Positions 1-6,042 of a stretch of DNA of 45,305 nt are shown piece after piece. This DNA is from a virus. The notes under the pieces are model-generated. The model was not told the DNA's origin, made no database searches, and was given only the letters and a program-made list of their open reading frames with translations. Made by a program: the position numbers and the translations under genes. The DNA lies in the IMG/VR virus record IMGVR_UViG_3300009529_000013, positions 1-45,305 of that record; one strand, 5' to 3'. Position 1 is the stretch's first letter; each line of letters opens with the position of its first letter.

Positions 1-3000
1 TAGGTAAATATGTCCTAAACCATCCTGCATATCTATTCTCTGAAACTTCAGATCTTCCTTTATTTTATTATGAACATCAAATATTTGTTGGGGTGGTCCT
101 GCCAGTTTGATTGTTTCATCAGAACTAGCAGCCTTATTAACTCTGCTAGATTTATCCCTAACCGCTTCAGATATATTGCTGTAAATAACCTTTAGAATCT
201 CTGGCATTTTACCCTCTATGGCTTCTTCTTTGAACCTCAAAATCCTCCATCCTATATTGGCTAAGACCTGATCTCTTTGTTGGTCGTGAATCTTTTGGTC
301 TATTTGTTCGTGCCAGATCTCGCCGCATGTTTCAATACCGACACCCACGTCAGGATATGCAAAATCCAAAACGTAAGGTTGAGGTTGACCTGCGGTGGCT
401 ATCTTGTACTGCAAAAAGAACTTATAAGGAATTTGTCCAGACAACATTGATAGTCCATTTAACATCTTCTGTTCAAGGGTAGTCAGTCTTATATTCTGCA
501 TACTCTGCTGGAACTGTTGAGCCTGTTGTTGTGCTTGTTCCTGCTGTTGTTCTGCCATAGACTTTCCACCTTTTCCTCTTTTACTTATAAAGGAGGGTGC
601 TGGTGAAACCGGTTGAGCCGCTGCCATCGGTGCTGGCATGCCTCCTGGTGCCGGTGGTGCTGCCCCTGGCATCCCCGGTGGTGCTGCTCCAGGCATTCCA
701 GGTTCTCCACCCGGCATTCCAGGCATCCCTCCACCGCCTAGATCCATTGGTGGCATTCCTCCACCCATACCGCCACCCATTGGCATACCACCCATACCGC
801 CCATACCACCTTGTGGCTGTCCAAGGAATTGTCCGGTAGCAGAAGCCAAAGCATTTTCTTCTCTAATTCTTCGTGTTTCCTGATCGTAATCGATATCGAA
901 CTCTTCCAACAATCTTTGAGCGGAAATCAATCCCTTATCATGTAACTGCATAAGAATTTGTCTAAAATTAGTTCTATCACGAAGCTGTAGGTCATTCCAT
1001 TTTAATTTTGGGTAAACAAACACGTCTTCACCAGCTTCTTTGCTCTCTTCCTCATCTTTGAAATTCTGCATCATTGCAATAGGCAAGAAAATGTGATTTT
1101 CAACCCATTCTGCTAATTCATTTCTCCAACTCTCTAAACGAGCAATCATAATTTCAATACCAACTTGTGCAGAGTTACCTTGAATTGTAATTTGACCATT
1201 TCTCATCGTTACAAATAATCCATAAGGAACTTCAAAACAGTAAACCTTTCCCTTATAATGTTTCTTTGTTATTTCTTCGTGATCATCATAAATTGAATAT
1301 TCTTCTTGCCCAATTTTAATGGTTTTTTGATAGTTTCCGGCATACCCCTCTACTGCACCAATAAATTTTGCCCTTGCTTTTACGTCTTTGGCTTCTATAA
1401 ATCTATACTCATCAGAATCCCTTTTGGCACTCCACATCCTGTGGTTCGGCGTTACTAAAATATCCATCTTATCAGTATTAAAATGTATCATTTCTCCGTC
1501 ATAATCATAAACCATTTTTTTATAAGGAGAATGATATTCTATTTCTTTTGTATCGGGGTTATAACATGCTATCTTATCAACTTTAGGATCTATATCATCG
1601 TATTTTTTGAATCCCGAATCACATAGAGTAAGTGTATCTTCACTGTGGCAACTATAACCACTCGCCTCACCGTTTAGAATAGCCTGATTTAACATAAAGC
1701 CATCTAGGATTTCCTTGCCAATTTCTTCCAATTCATTAGTGAGATTATGAATCTTACCAGAATTGCCTTGTACAGAGATCATTCCATTTCTACGGACAAT
1801 GAGCATACTATTAGGAACTTTTACGCAATATACCTTACCAATATAATCGGGTCTATGTATATGTTGTTTTCTTATATTAAATTTTACATCTTTACGCCTT
1901 TCTGACCAGTATACACGATACATATTTTTATGTTTCAAATGGGTTTTATCTTCTACTGATGTATTAGCAAAATATCCAATCTTTAAACATATTTCGGATA
2001 CATCATCTGCCAATTGTTTAGAAGTTGTGCTGTATTTGTATCTGGGTGTAGACCCGTCATTTCGTCTAGTCCCATCTCCGTCCATCAAGGCATCAAGCAA
2101 AATTTGTAATTTTTCTTTCGGCAAATTTTTAATCCACTGCGGTATTCTCTTGTTCTCTGAACCATGTCCACATTCGTTGAACAAATGCCTAGCTATGATA
2201 CAACTATTAATGGCAAAATTAGCACAGACGCTTTTATGCCTCGCCCCAATTCTATTATCTTTATAATGAGAATACTTCGGATATACCTTTTGTACAGTAT
2301 CAGTTATACTGCGATTATGTACGCTATTTTGATTTTGGTATATGTTGCAATCTACAATCTGTTTTCCCCCACTTAATTGTAGATACCTTTTTATACCATC
2401 TTTTCTTTTATATGGTATTCTTTTTATTATGTGCGTGGACCCTTCGCTAACAAAATATCCAATAAATTTCAAATACGTATCTAAATCAACATCTTTCATA
2501 TTATGTTCTTTGTATGGGAGATATTCTGGAATAGATCCTGCCCAATTTAGCGTAGAAACAAATTTGTCATTATGTTTTACGTCCTGGGAATAAACTACCT
2601 GTGTTTTGCCTTTTCTTTCTATCAACATTCTGTGATTTGGCGTTACCATAACATCAACGGATCTACGTTTAAAATGATACATCTGAGAGAATGTAGTAGA
2701 ATCATAATCGTATTCATTATATTCTGTTGGTAATTGGTACTCCAAATGTTTATTATCCATATTGTATGTGGCAACTTTTTCATCTTTTTCAAGTTCGTTA
2801 AAATACTTCCATCTATTCTCTGTAAGAATTTCTGTATCCTCTGAATGACAAGCTCCTTCCCAAGAGTAATCGAAATTATTATGAGTAACAAGTGTCAGGT
2901 TAGGATCATTGGAAACAGCTACAAGTTGAGATGAAACATCTGCGATATCGGCGGCAGTAGCTGGACGGCTGTCCGATCCTAATTTAACAATACGAATAGG

Positions 3001-6000
3001 AAGAATTAATCTTTCAGCAACAATCCAGTTTGCTGTCATTAATTTTGTCTTGTATGCTAAATATGTAAACATTCTACGAATAATAGATGTTCCATAAGCA
3101 CTATATGGACTACCACCATATTTAATATGACTCATATTTCTATTGGACAATACAATTGGCTGCCCAGTTGAGACTGACTCAATTAGAGAAGCAGGTAGTT
3201 TGCTATATATAGCTTCTGGTCTTTTGGTGGCGATAATGCCTTTTAGCTCATCATCTGGTTCAAGCATATAAACTGCTTCTTCTGACATTGGGTTCTTGTG
3301 GACCGTGATCCAGTCTGGGTTTAATACTTTAATTTTACTAACCGTTCCACCTGGGTGATTACACTCGGTTCCATCTAGCAGTGCGTGTCCACCACACCTT
3401 TCACATTCATATTCTACAAATGGGTACACGTCACCTAATAAATGTCTCTCAAATCCAATTGCTTTAAGCCAATAATTCAACTTAAGTCTTTTGACAGTTC
3501 TCTCAAAAAACTTCAATATCTTTTTGTCTTTACATTCTAAAACAAATCCATTAAGTGGAAATTCGGAGTTATGAACAGCAATTCTGTTAGCAATATAACT
3601 ATGTTTGTTGCTAATTGTCAAATCAAACACGTCACCAGAATATCTCTGTGTTTTTATATCATTAATTTTTCTATAGATATATTTGCCTTTAACAATATCA
3701 TCGTCAACAGAATACTGACTATTTTCGTCTGTTTCATAATTTATTGGCGTTAATAAATAATCTCCAACTTTTAATGTTCCTACTTGTACAAAATCTATCT
3801 GCCCATCTTTCTCAGTAAGGACTTTATGTCCAGGTGTTACTTTTAATGTATCCTGACTGACGCCCTCAATTTCTATGGCAAGTATTTCTTCATCTACATA
3901 TTTTTTATGAATTTCTTCCACACTATTGACAGTGCCATCATGACTTCTGACTAAATCGTCTTTTTTAATCGAAGATATAGATTTCTGTGATCCATCTACC
4001 ATTAATATTTGCGTAGCAGGAACAAAACAATAAAAATCCACACCAGCCGCCACCTTTGGCTCGTTCGAATTATGAACAACACATCTATTAACACAATAAC
4101 TATGTTCCCCTTCTAATTCCAAATCATACACTTTTCCTTCGTAATATTTTTCGCGGATAGATGTAATTTCATGATATATTTTATTTTTAGTTTTTATGGG
4201 TGGAGTATATAATCTATCCCCCACTCTTATCTCTGATGCTTCAACCCATTTTTCCTCAAAATCCAAATCGTCATATTGATGTTTTTCCCATTTTTTTTGT
4301 TTGACGATTGGTATTTCGTGTGAACTAGTCACATTCATTTCTCTATTTATTCCACCGGCTTTAATAGATAAGATATTCTCGGAAATATCTCTACTGTGAA
4401 TTTTTTTAATAGGACTAATATTCCCAGTACCATTAATAACTTCATCTCCTTCCGTTAATTCATCTATTCTTTTTTCCGTACCATCTCCCATCAGTACTAA
4501 AGACTCTGGAGTAAAACATTGATAGAACCTACAATTAGAACAAATATACCCATCTGCAACTAAGGCATGACGACTATTAGTCATTTCTATGTCATAACCT
4601 TTGCCGGTGTAGTAAAACTGCTCTATTTTTGATATTGGTTGAGCAAAATATATTTGTCCATCTTCTTCGTAGAAAAATTTTAATTCTCTTGATGTTTTCG
4701 GCGTAAAATCTTCGGGGATTTTATCACTTCTCATGTATGGCCGTAATTTTTTGACTTCAGAAGAAGGGATAAAAATCCTATAACACCATTCTAATGTTGT
4801 TGGATAATGATCTCCATCCAAAGGATATTTATTTAATGAACAAGATATCCCACAAGATAATAATAGCCAGTATAATTGATCCGCCATATCCTTAGAATAA
4901 TTATTTGCTATTAGTTTTGTTTCTTTTTTGTCAAACGAACTATCTCCATCAAAATAACCAGCAAGAACGTGTAATCTAGTTTCTTTATCTAGTGAAAAAA
5001 TTTCTTGTGTAAATTTTTTATTAATACCTTTATTTGTGATGTATTTTAAGAAAAAAGAACATGTTGCCGACGTAGTAGCACTCACTCGATATCCATTCCC
5101 ATCACCATGTTTTTTTCTACTTATTTTTCCTTCAAACTCATTATTTAATATTTTTTCACATTCATCGAGATGCTTTTCTCTGCTATCACCGGTAAATCCA
5201 ACAAAATGGTATGCATTTTTTTTGGAACATAATGTACCATCAGCAATGCATAGTCCAACCAACCAAGCAAGATCAGATTGAATATTTTGAGTTCCAACTT
5301 CAGGAACGGGACAAAGTAAATAATCATTACTTTTAACATTCTGTGCTTCTACTTTCTTTATTAAATCATCGGGGACAATAACTTTTTTTACTCCATTTGG
5401 TTTAATCCCAACTTTTCGTCTATGTCTTGTAGCATCTTCTACTGATTTCTTTTTCCTATAAAGATCTCCATCTAACACAAAGATTTTATGTTCTTCACTT
5501 ATTCTTAATTCTCTCCAATACCCATAAGCAGAAAAACTAAAACATCTTTTATCAACGCATTCCCTTTCCGAGAAACGAGGAGGTTTACTGAAATTTCCCT
5601 CTGAATCCATGATCTCAGGATAATCTATGTTCTCATAAAGAAGTCCACCAGTCAATGTGTCTTCAATCAAATTTTCACAAGAAAAACTAACATTTTCCAT
5701 ACTCTGATAAGTGAAATCATTCATAAGTACTTGTGTATAAAGGAGATACGTCCACTGATAAATTTCTCTTTTTTTACTAGCAATTTGCCAATTTTGAGGA
5801 GTATGGAGTGGTGAGAAGAACATTGGCTGGCCATACATCACATTTGGAAGACCGCCGCCTCCTCCTCCCATTGCCTGTCCTGTTTTTGTATAGGCTTCTA
5901 CAACGCTCTTCGTTAGTGGTGTATCAGCATTACCTGATGATGCGTAATGTTGTCCTTCGAACTGAGATGATCCAACACCTTTTGAATAGGCTGAGAATTT

Positions 6001-6042
6001 CCTCTTCACTTGTCTATTACTCATAGAGAATTTAATTCCCAT
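1..6042 (-). CDS. Phage portal protein with five inteins and a C-terminal DUF559/Vsr-like nuclease domain (C-terminus beyond window)
   Basis: The portal forms the dodecameric DNA gate at the capsid vertex. I translated the whole frame by hand: it is open from ATG 6042 to base 1 (2014 codons, no stop) and continues off the left edge. AAGGAT lies 8 nt before the ATG. Removing five inteins joins extein pieces of 97, 5, 13, 239, 37 and at least 391 residues into a portal-like chain: NWQIASKKREIYQW, CRFYQ, SNEPKVAAGVDFY, SEFPLNGFVLECK and onward. A CxxC-CxH cluster (ECERCGG...TECNH) lies at about 3319-3390. The tail is a Gly/Met/Pro-rich linker (about 600-830), a Gln-rich helix (about 485-565), then a DUF559/Vsr-like nuclease domain (about 170-420: DFAYP, IETCGEIWH, RDQVLANIGWRILRF). 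The portal call rests on extein resemblance and on sharing a minus-strand cluster with the terminase; the intein calls are much firmer. Confidence 0.85.
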   Translation of the reverse strand, partial: MGIKFSMSNRQVKRKFSAYSKGVGSSQFEGQHYASSGNADTPLTKSVVEAYTKTGQAMGGGGGGLPNVMYGQPMFFSPLHTPQNWQIASKKREIYQWTYLLYTQVLMNDFTYQSMENVSFSCENLIEDTLTGGLLYENIDYPEIMDSEGNFSKPPRFSERECVDKRCFSFSAYGYWRELRISEEHKIFVLDGDLYRKKKSVEDATRHRRKVGIKPNGVKKVIVPDDLIKKVEAQNVKSNDYLLCPVPEVGTQNIQSDLAWLVGLCIADGTLCSKKNAYHFVGFTGDSREKHLDECEKILNNEFEGKISRKKHGDGNGYRVSATTSATCSFFLKYITNKGINKKFTQEIFSLDKETRLHVLAGYFDGDSSFDKKETKLIANNYSKDMADQLYWLLLSCGISCSLNKYPLDGDHYPTTLEWCYRIFIPSSEVKKLRPYMRSDKIPEDFTPKTSRELKFFYEEDGQIYFAQPISKIEQFYYTGKGYDIEMTNSRHALVADGYICSNCRFYQCFTPESLVLMGDGTEKRIDELTEGDEVINGTGNISPIKKIHSRDISENILSIKAGGINREMNVTSSHEIPIVKQKKWEKHQYDDLDFEEKWVEASEIRVGDRLYTPPIKTKNKIYHEITSIREKYYEGKVYDLELEGEHSYCVNRCVVHNSNEPKVAAGVDFYCFVPATQILMVDGSQKSISSIKKDDLVRSHDGTVNSVEEIHKKYVDEEILAIEIEGVSQDTLKVTPGHKVLTEKDGQIDFVQVGTLKVGDYLLTPINYETDENSQYSVDDDIVKGKYIYRKINDIKTQRYSGDVFDLTISNKHSYIANRIAVHNSEFPLNGFVLECKDKKILKFFERTVKRLKLNYWLKAIGFERHLLGDVYPFVEYECERCGGHALLDGTECNHPGGTVSKIKVLNPDWITVHKNPMSEEAVYMLEPDDELKGIIATKRPEAIYSKLPASLIESVSTGQPIVLSNRNMSHIKYGGSPYSAYGTSIIRRMFTYLAYKTKLMTANWIVAERLILPIRIVKLGSDSRPATAADIADVSSQLVAVSNDPNLTLVTHNNFDYSWEGACHSEDTEILTENRWKYFNELEKDEKVATYNMDNKHLEYQLPTEYNEYDYDSTTFSQMYHFKRRSVDVMVTPNHRMLIERKGKTQVVYSQDVKHNDKFVSTLNWAGSIPEYLPYKEHNMKDVDLDTYLKFIGYFVSEGSTHIIKRIPYKRKDGIKRYLQLSGGKQIVDCNIYQNQNSVHNRSITDTVQKVYPKYSHYKDNRIGARHKSVCANFAINSCIIARHLFNECGHGSENKRIPQWIKNLPKEKLQILLDALMDGDGTRRNDGSTPRYKYSTTSKQLADDVSEICLKIGYFANTSVEDKTHLKHKNMYRVYWSERRKDVKFNIRKQHIHRPDYIGKVYCVKVPNSMLIVRRNGMISVQGNSGKIHNLTNELEEIGKEILDGFMLNQAILNGEASGYSCHSEDTLTLCDSGFKKYDDIDPKVDKIACYNPDTKEIEYHSPYKKMVYDYDGEMIHFNTDKMDILVTPNHRMWSAKRDSDEYRFIEAKDVKARAKFIGAVEGYAGNYQKTIKIGQEEYSIYDDHEEITKKHYKGKVYCFEVPYGLFVTMRNGQITIQGNSAQVGIEIMIARLESWRNELAEWVENHIFLPIAMMQNFKDEEESKEAGEDVFVYPKLKWNDLQLRDRTNFRQILMQLHDKGLISAQRLLEEFDIDYDQETRRIREENALASATGQFLGQPQGGMGGMGGMPMGGGMGGGMPPMDLGGGGMPGMPGGEPGMPGAAPPGMPGAAPPAPGGMPAPMAAAQPVSPAPSFISKRGKGGKSMAEQQQEQAQQQAQQFQQSMQNIRLTTLEQKMLNGLSMLSGQIPYKFFLQYKIATAGQPQPYVLDFAYPDVGVGIETCGEIWHEQIDQKIHDQQRDQVLANIGWRILRFKEEAIEGKMPEILKVIYSNISEAVRDKSSRVNKAASSDETIKLAGPPQQIFDVHNKIKEDLKFQRIDMQDGLGHIYL
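602..816 (-). repeat. Gly/Met/Pro-rich low-complexity linker in the portal
   Basis: The portal frame here encodes GGM, GGMP and PGMPGAAPP units, a flexible linker between the portal core and the C-terminal nuclease-like domain. The opposite strand also stays open here as Pro/Ile-rich shadow frames, which are a side effect of the biased composition. Confidence 0.8.
1174..1650 (-). mobile_element. Portal intein 5 (159 aa mini-intein)
   Basis: It is inserted 37 extein residues after intein 4, between GEASGYS and SAQVGIE. It starts CHSEDTLTLCDSG, has block B LVTPNHRMW and ends MRNGQITIQGN before Ser+1. It has no endonuclease domain. The first six residues are identical to intein 4 and the last eleven are nearly so, which makes it a likely endonuclease-free relative of intein 4. 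Confidence 0.93.
1762..2850 (-). mobile_element. Portal intein 4 (363 aa, LAGLIDADG endonuclease)
   Basis: It is inserted between extein DYSWEGA and SGKIHNL. It starts CHSEDTEILTENRW, has block B MVTPNHRML, and carries two LAGLIDADG-type motifs: FIGYFVSEGST near 2450 (Glu in place of the usual Asp) and LLDALMDGDGT near 2080. It ends RRNGMISVQGN before Ser+1, so the penultimate residue is Gly rather than His. Its N- and C-terminal blocks match those of intein 5. It is probably a complete mobile intein. Confidence 0.93.
3568..4029 (-). mobile_element. Portal intein 3 (154 aa mini-intein)
   Basis: A mini-intein inserted 13 extein residues after intein 2, between VDFY and SEFPLNG. It begins CFVPATQILMVDG, has block B KVTPGHKVLT and ends NKHSYIANRIAVHN before Ser+1. 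There is no endonuclease domain. It is a sibling of intein 2 by its termini and length. All standard splicing residues are present. Confidence 0.93.
4069..4518 (-). mobile_element. Portal intein 2 (150 aa mini-intein)
   Basis: A mini-intein without an endonuclease domain starts only five codons after the end of intein 1. It begins CFTPESLVLMGDG, has a block B TxxH (NVTSSHEIPI) and ends GEHSYCVNRCVVHN before Ser+1. All canonical splicing residues (Cys1, TxxH, His-Asn, Ser+1) are visible, so it is expected to be active. Its ends resemble those of intein 3 (CFxP...LMxDG; HSYxxNRxxVHN), suggesting shared ancestry. Confidence 0.93.
4534..5751 (-). mobile_element. Portal intein 1 (406 aa, LAGLIDADG endonuclease, Thr at position 1)
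   Basis: This intein lies between extein YQW and CRFYQ. Its N-terminal block (TYLLYTQVLMND) aligns with the usual CxxxDTxVLM pattern, but residue 1 is Thr (codon ACG) instead of Cys or Ser. The block B region reads RISEEHKIFV, with the His present but Ser in place of the usual Thr. Two dodecapeptide motifs of a LAGLIDADG homing endonuclease are present: WLVGLCIADGTL near 5250 and LAGYFDGDSSF near 4960. The C-terminal blocks read YDIEMTNSRHALVADGYICSN followed by Cys+1, with Ser as the penultimate residue. Splicing chemistry with Thr1 is not established; the boundary is inferred from the expected continuity of the portal extein. Confidence 0.85.

Follow-up and report, generated by a model that had tools for sequence, protein, structure and literature searches.

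The window analysed here, i.e. the whole stretch of DNA, comprises the 45,305 bases of an IMG/VR record and is hence a fragment. At its left end it truncates a phage portal gene on the minus strand, which lacks about three codons at its 3' end, as judged by comparison with the relative L003 (VGT, then stop). The frame alternates between exteins and five inteins, whose insertion sites we call a to e in order of translation:

1..6042, minus strand: portal precursor gene, 2014 codons open in the window, 3' end missing
5752..6042, minus strand: N-extein, 97 aa, C-terminal end ...KKREIYQW
4534..5751, minus strand: intein 1 (site a), 406 aa, T1...SN|C, splicing domain and LAGLIDADG homing endonuclease, class 2-like signature
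4825..4977, minus strand: Pfam LAGLIDADG_3 match in intein 1 (intein residues 259-309)
4519..4533, minus strand: micro-extein CRFYQ, 5 aa, its Cys being the +1 residue of intein 1
4069..4518, minus strand: intein 2 (site b), mini-intein, 150 aa, C1...HN|S
4030..4068, minus strand: micro-extein SNEPKVAAGVDFY, 13 aa
3568..4029, minus strand: intein 3 (site c), mini-intein, 154 aa, C1...HN|S
2851..3567, minus strand: extein between inteins 3 and 4, 239 aa
1762..2850, minus strand: intein 4 (site d), 363 aa, C1...GN|S, LAGLIDADG endonuclease
1897..2100, minus strand: Pfam LAGLIDADG_3 match in intein 4 (intein residues 251-318)
1651..1761, minus strand: extein between inteins 4 and 5, 37 aa
1174..1650, minus strand: intein 5 (site e), mini-intein, 159 aa, C1...GN|S
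1..1173, minus strand: C-extein, Gly/Met/Pro-rich linker and C-terminal DUF559-like nuclease domain

A previous sequence-only reading had proposed a continuous frame, complement(1..6042), with five intein units, and we reproduced its coordinates exactly, with intein 1 starting at T98. Recomputation of the further values gave identical results: the inteins sum to 1232 aa, or 3696 of the 6042 bases, an extein of 782 aa is left after their removal, and CRFYQ and SNEPKVAAGVDFY are the micro-exteins. Intein prediction, which that reading had suggested as a check, returned Pfam intein or LAGLIDADG matches in all five units, the one for intein 5 being weak (E 0.008). Inteins 2-5 display class 1 features, with Cys1 in 4/4, block B sequences VTSSH, VTPGH, VTPNH and VTPNH, and the C-terminal junctions HN|S, HN|S, GN|S and GN|S (terminal Asn, Ser+1). 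The matching N- and C-terminal blocks claimed for every unit were thus found for these four, but not for intein 1, which begins with Thr and belongs to a family in which residue 1 is not conserved.

Searching the spliced extein against portal families, likewise proposed beforehand, yielded a match to PHROG 16240 (portal; 5e-42, extein residues 51-436). The concern that the extein boundaries might fit no portal was removed by the portal of Bacillus phage G (gp14), which is homologous in one piece over 99% of the query with 30.7% identity. Unlike the window portal, the phage G protein has neither an intein nor a C-terminal DUF559 domain; in the spliced window protein, this DUF559-like nuclease domain follows the Gly/Met/Pro-rich linker. 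No portal homologues were found in 84,980 prokaryote genomes. An AF2 model of the portal of an intein-free relative (L008) reached a pLDDT of only 51.7, too poor for mapping the insertion sites on the fold. The C-terminal domain itself (375-166, minus strand) is a DUF559/MTES_1575-like nuclease, and the residues D..E.DG..H..D..RD are invariant in 16 intein-free relatives; the window motif reads E-T-C-G, in contrast to E-A-D-G in these 16. A further intein site, f, lies inside this nuclease motif (GVE|C...N|CDG) in L046, L054, L074, L096 and L122.

To delimit the inteins, we used relatives found by scanning viral contigs with the extein. The extein of L002 is 90% identical and its sole intein is intein 2, while in L003 (93% identical) intein 1 is accompanied by intein 4 in a mini form; sites a, d and e are occupied in L004, and sites a and e in L005. 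When the spliced exteins of the window and its relatives were aligned, no gap appeared at any of the ten junctions. DNA alignments with L002 and L003 break exactly at the intein end bases, and inteins 2-5 are in-frame insertions that are missing from homologous genes with the site empty. Each boundary is fixed because relatives have the respective site empty. An alternative start of intein 1 at the first Cys of 'ERECVDKRC' was rejected, as it makes the extein 64 residues too long; the empty-site relatives place the junction at W97|T98. Purifying selection acts on inteins 1, 2 and 4 and on the extein, with dN/dS values of 0.20 for the splicing domain and 0.28 for the endonuclease part of intein 1, 0.13 for intein 2, 0.10 for intein 4 and 0.07 for the extein. 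There is little room for doubt that a real single gene holds five inteins.

Among related portals, this gene is not alone in carrying inteins. For a census we combined three scans, which used the portal alignment, the intein 1 family and an intein-free core segment as queries and gave 81 portals below 97% extein identity; the counts are shaped by these search patterns and do not represent an unbiased survey. Here, 56 of the 81 portals contained one to five inteins, spread over six or more sites (25 without intein, 22 with one, 20 with two, six with three, six with four and two with five). The second five-intein portal, L119, is occupied at a, b, d and two e sub-sites, and a 4-residue extein (SGYQ) separates its two e sub-site inteins. 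The independent contig L065 has inteins at a, b, c and e, and the first three are stacked in the same way, separated by CRFYY and SNEPKVAAGVDFY. Relatives keep endonuclease-bearing inteins at sites b, c and e. As a side observation, site-e inteins (window 1650-1174, minus strand; L004, L005, L041 and L119) are found at several adjacent positions, all within about five codons (GEAS|SYS, GY|TSAQ and GYS|SAQ, among others), which gives the impression that homologous inteins slid along or entered again close by.

The earlier description of five inteins as exceptional therefore applies to the extreme count, but needs a qualification: this portal is a hotspot of inteins, and L119 also has five. Four inteins in one gene are cited for the Trichodesmium ribonucleotide reductase (Liu et al., 2003, as cited in PMC4649490), three for Haloquadratum polB and four sites (a-d) for haloarchaeal MCM (PMC10643990); we found no gene with more than four in the open-access literature. 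As in the window portal and its relatives, more than one intein has inserted into a single essential gene in these systems, each at a conserved site of its own; occupancy is patchy, and some of the inteins have no endonuclease. They differ in that their hosts are enzymes of nucleotide metabolism or replication, whereas the window gene encodes a virion structural protein with five inteins and two micro-exteins, 5 and 13 residues long (L119 has one of 4 residues). In phages, a crAss-like terminase with two inteins has been described (PMC7886860), and the portal of mycobacteriophage cluster C1 contains a single intein (PMC5050341). The latter (Gizmo gp94) shares the type of host protein with our case, but is a lone intein with an HNH endonuclease at a different site (EIKFS|C...HN|TLNLRDE).

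A portal precursor with five inteins, the first of them class 2-like, is probably the best explanation of the whole. The initial product of the gene for the portal, the gateway for packaging phage DNA, would be a precursor at least 2014 residues long; each intein would cut itself out and ligate the exteins on either side, and the spliced portal would have about 785 residues. All five inteins very probably splice. Inteins 1 and 4, with their LAGLIDADG homing endonucleases retained, would have spread by homing, whereas inteins 2, 3 and 5 have lost theirs, and the pile-up is best understood as the result of selfish elements entering a conserved gene time and again. Splicing, homing and an order in which the inteins would splice are inferred.

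Could the arrangement instead be a strain chimaera, in which each strain has fewer inteins and all were collapsed into one contig? Close relatives hold subsets (intein 2 in L002, inteins 1 and 4 in L003), the exact five-intein arrangement was seen once, and a junction-pattern scan of other IMG/VR contigs returned no second copy of the exact I1-CRFYQ-I2 junction. However, DNA identity amounts to only 74% between intein 2 and its L002 copy and 84% between intein 1 and its L003 copy, inteins 3 and 5 are absent from both relatives, and the two independent contigs L065 and L119 are similarly stacked. Furthermore, the micro-exteins measure 15 and 39 nt, which is close to the usual k-mer length or less and presumably too short for assembly joints, and strain collapse is very unlikely, its probability being close to negligible. 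It is also improbable that the inteins are kept for control of portal maturation by conditional splicing and not by selfishness alone. Such a role would be in agreement with three of five inteins being intact without an endonuclease (intein 2 being constrained as given above) and with micro-exteins that could couple splicing steps, but constraint from splicing alone accounts for purifying selection, and 25/81 intein-free relatives with sporadic occupancy are what is expected of mobile elements.

The main mechanistic oddity is the missing nucleophile of intein 1, which was absent from the sequence-only reading. Site a holds three intein lineages, a1, a2 and a3. The a3 lineage (L004) is ordinary (C1...KN|S), and a2 has S1 or C1 and a C-terminal Gln. 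Intein 1 belongs to a1, which comprises 13 members (the window, L003, L032, L034, L036, L040, L066, L069, L074, L088, L091, L092 and L096). Residue 1 of a1 is Leu in four members, Thr and Gln in two each, and Lys, Glu, Ser, Met and Asp in one each, but never Ala; both Thr residues are found in the window and its nearest relative L003. Only 13 of the 409 alignment columns are more variable than this one. In contrast, residue 1 is Cys or Ser in 97/97 scorable non-a1 inteins of the census, with the site-e insert of L088 left unscored. Invariant in a1 are HisB:10, AspF:4, SerG:6 (13/13) and AsnG:7 (13/13), and the C-terminus is always SN; the +1 residue is Cys in 12/13 and Ser in L088. No Cys within the intein is invariant, and no alternative N-terminal nucleophile emerged near the start, where position 6 is T, Q, S or C and unconserved. 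Most of the relatives with an empty site a have a non-Cys residue at the +1 position, most commonly Ala, and the N-extein end NWQIASKRREIYQW is strongly conserved. AF2 modelled intein 1 and the flanking exteins with confidence (pLDDT 87.8), and the model matched whole inteins with endonuclease best in Foldseek, with 7qsu (6e-18), PI-PfuI and PI-SceI at the top and TliVMA among the matches. In isolated or annotated phages, the closest match to intein 1 is a crAss-like terminase intein of 22% identity (C1...HN|C), which we read as class 1.

In phylogenetic analysis, a1 and a2 are well-supported sister clades and C1 inteins branch outside, and therefore the nucleophile was lost inside this lineage; by the simplest count this happened once, possibly twice. 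A second tree calculated without the first eight residues recovered the same clusters, with the root of a1 uncertain due to the long-branch outgroup L004. Two observations stand beside this analysis. In the a2 inteins (L005, L010, L013, L033, L063, L065, L067, L078, L085 and L086), the C-terminal junction reads Q|C or Q|S; close to their start, separated from Ser1 by a distance that varies, they share an additional, strictly conserved Cys ('PC'), and more Cys residues are invariant. Within the nucleophile-free family, L088 combines Leu1 with Ser+1, and if it splices, an alcohol would need to attack an amide bond directly.

Intein 1 lacks the N-terminal Cys or Ser of class 1, having Thr1 instead. 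The class 2 signature consists of Cys+1, SerG:6, AspF:4 and HisB:10 (PMC4031507), and intein 1 has all four. The combination of no N-terminal nucleophile with Cys+1 runs through the family (12/13), with Thr1 of the window being arguable. SerG:6 also occurs in nine Cys1 inteins of the wider family. ThrB:7 is replaced by Ser in the window (SEEH), and the family has Ser or Thr, mostly Ser. Thus, the family resembles the Methanocaldococcus jannaschii KlbA inteins (PMC4031507) in the lack of Cys1/Ser1, SerG:6, AspF:4, HisB:10 and Cys+1, but differs in the portal host, a non-Ala and unconstrained residue 1, Ser at B:7 and the presence of an endonuclease. We propose that a1 works like class 2, yet do not assign it to this class because Ala1 and KlbA orthology fail. 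For class 3 inteins, which also lack an N-terminal nucleophile, a phage origin has been proposed. A class 3 mechanism was rejected because the WCT motif is absent: positions B:12, F:4 and G:5 are Ile, Asp and Cys in the window, in contrast to Trp B:12, Cys F:4 and a conserved Thr G:5, and AspF:4 is invariant in a1, with no Cys at F:4.

For intein 1, we infer that Cys+1 (the Cys of CRFYQ) would attack the W97-T98 peptide bond directly, whereupon Asn406 would cyclise; residue 1, having no chemical role, would be free to drift. Sequence conservation makes such a direct attack fairly probable. Thr is among the residues with which a class 1 intein may start according to PMC3196547, and its presence in the window and L003 would suit a class 1 intein using Thr1 for the N-O acyl shift, the residue 1 variation of the relatives then reflecting other solutions or decay. 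This is unlikely, as ten a1 members have L, Q, K, E, M or D, which are incapable of an acyl shift, and SerG:6, AsnG:7 and Cys+1 (12/13) are fixed despite the variation at residue 1. Elements without N-terminal nucleophile might also only cleave, since Asn cyclisation by itself would free the C-extein, leaving a two-chain portal with a separate 97-residue N-piece. Conservation of Cys+1 in 12/13 a1 inteins, although unneeded for Asn cyclisation and mostly another residue in empty-site relatives, argues against cleavage only, as does the strongly conserved N-extein end, and its chance is slim. Returning to direct attack, we lean slightly towards regarding a1 (intein 1 and its 12 relatives) as the first direct-Cys+1-attack inteins outside KlbA and the first with a wholly free residue 1, which would have arisen in phages by nucleophile loss at a site where the S1/C1 sister clade keeps it.

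To our knowledge, class 2 inteins have so far been described only in archaeal KlbA, and our search of the open-access literature found no class 2 intein in a phage. The intein 1 family bears on a question that the literature describes as open, namely how inteins get past what hinders a direct attack at their N-terminal junction and how class 2 arose from class 1; until now, archaeal KlbA inteins were the only ones available for it. If our reading is true, the transition from class 1 to class 2 is preserved at one insertion site and open to dissection, and an intein without constraint on residue 1 would be useful for protein engineering. Five inteins also exceed the maximum of four in one gene that we found, and they sit in a virion protein that has to assemble into a precise ring. 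In three different phages, neighbouring inteins are separated by 4-6 residues, and the stacked inteins make it testable how neighbours splice without blocking one another.

Elsewhere in the window, a sixth intein (27839-27315, minus strand; 175 aa, C1...HN|C) with little or no endonuclease resides in a gene for an NrdJ_Z-type ribonucleotide reductase (28265-25116). The structural module also contains a long Ser-rich repeat protein (21259-19133, minus strand) with the repeat (SSSSSNTPSS)n, and its C-terminal part resembles, by eye, a LamG/concanavalin-like fold.
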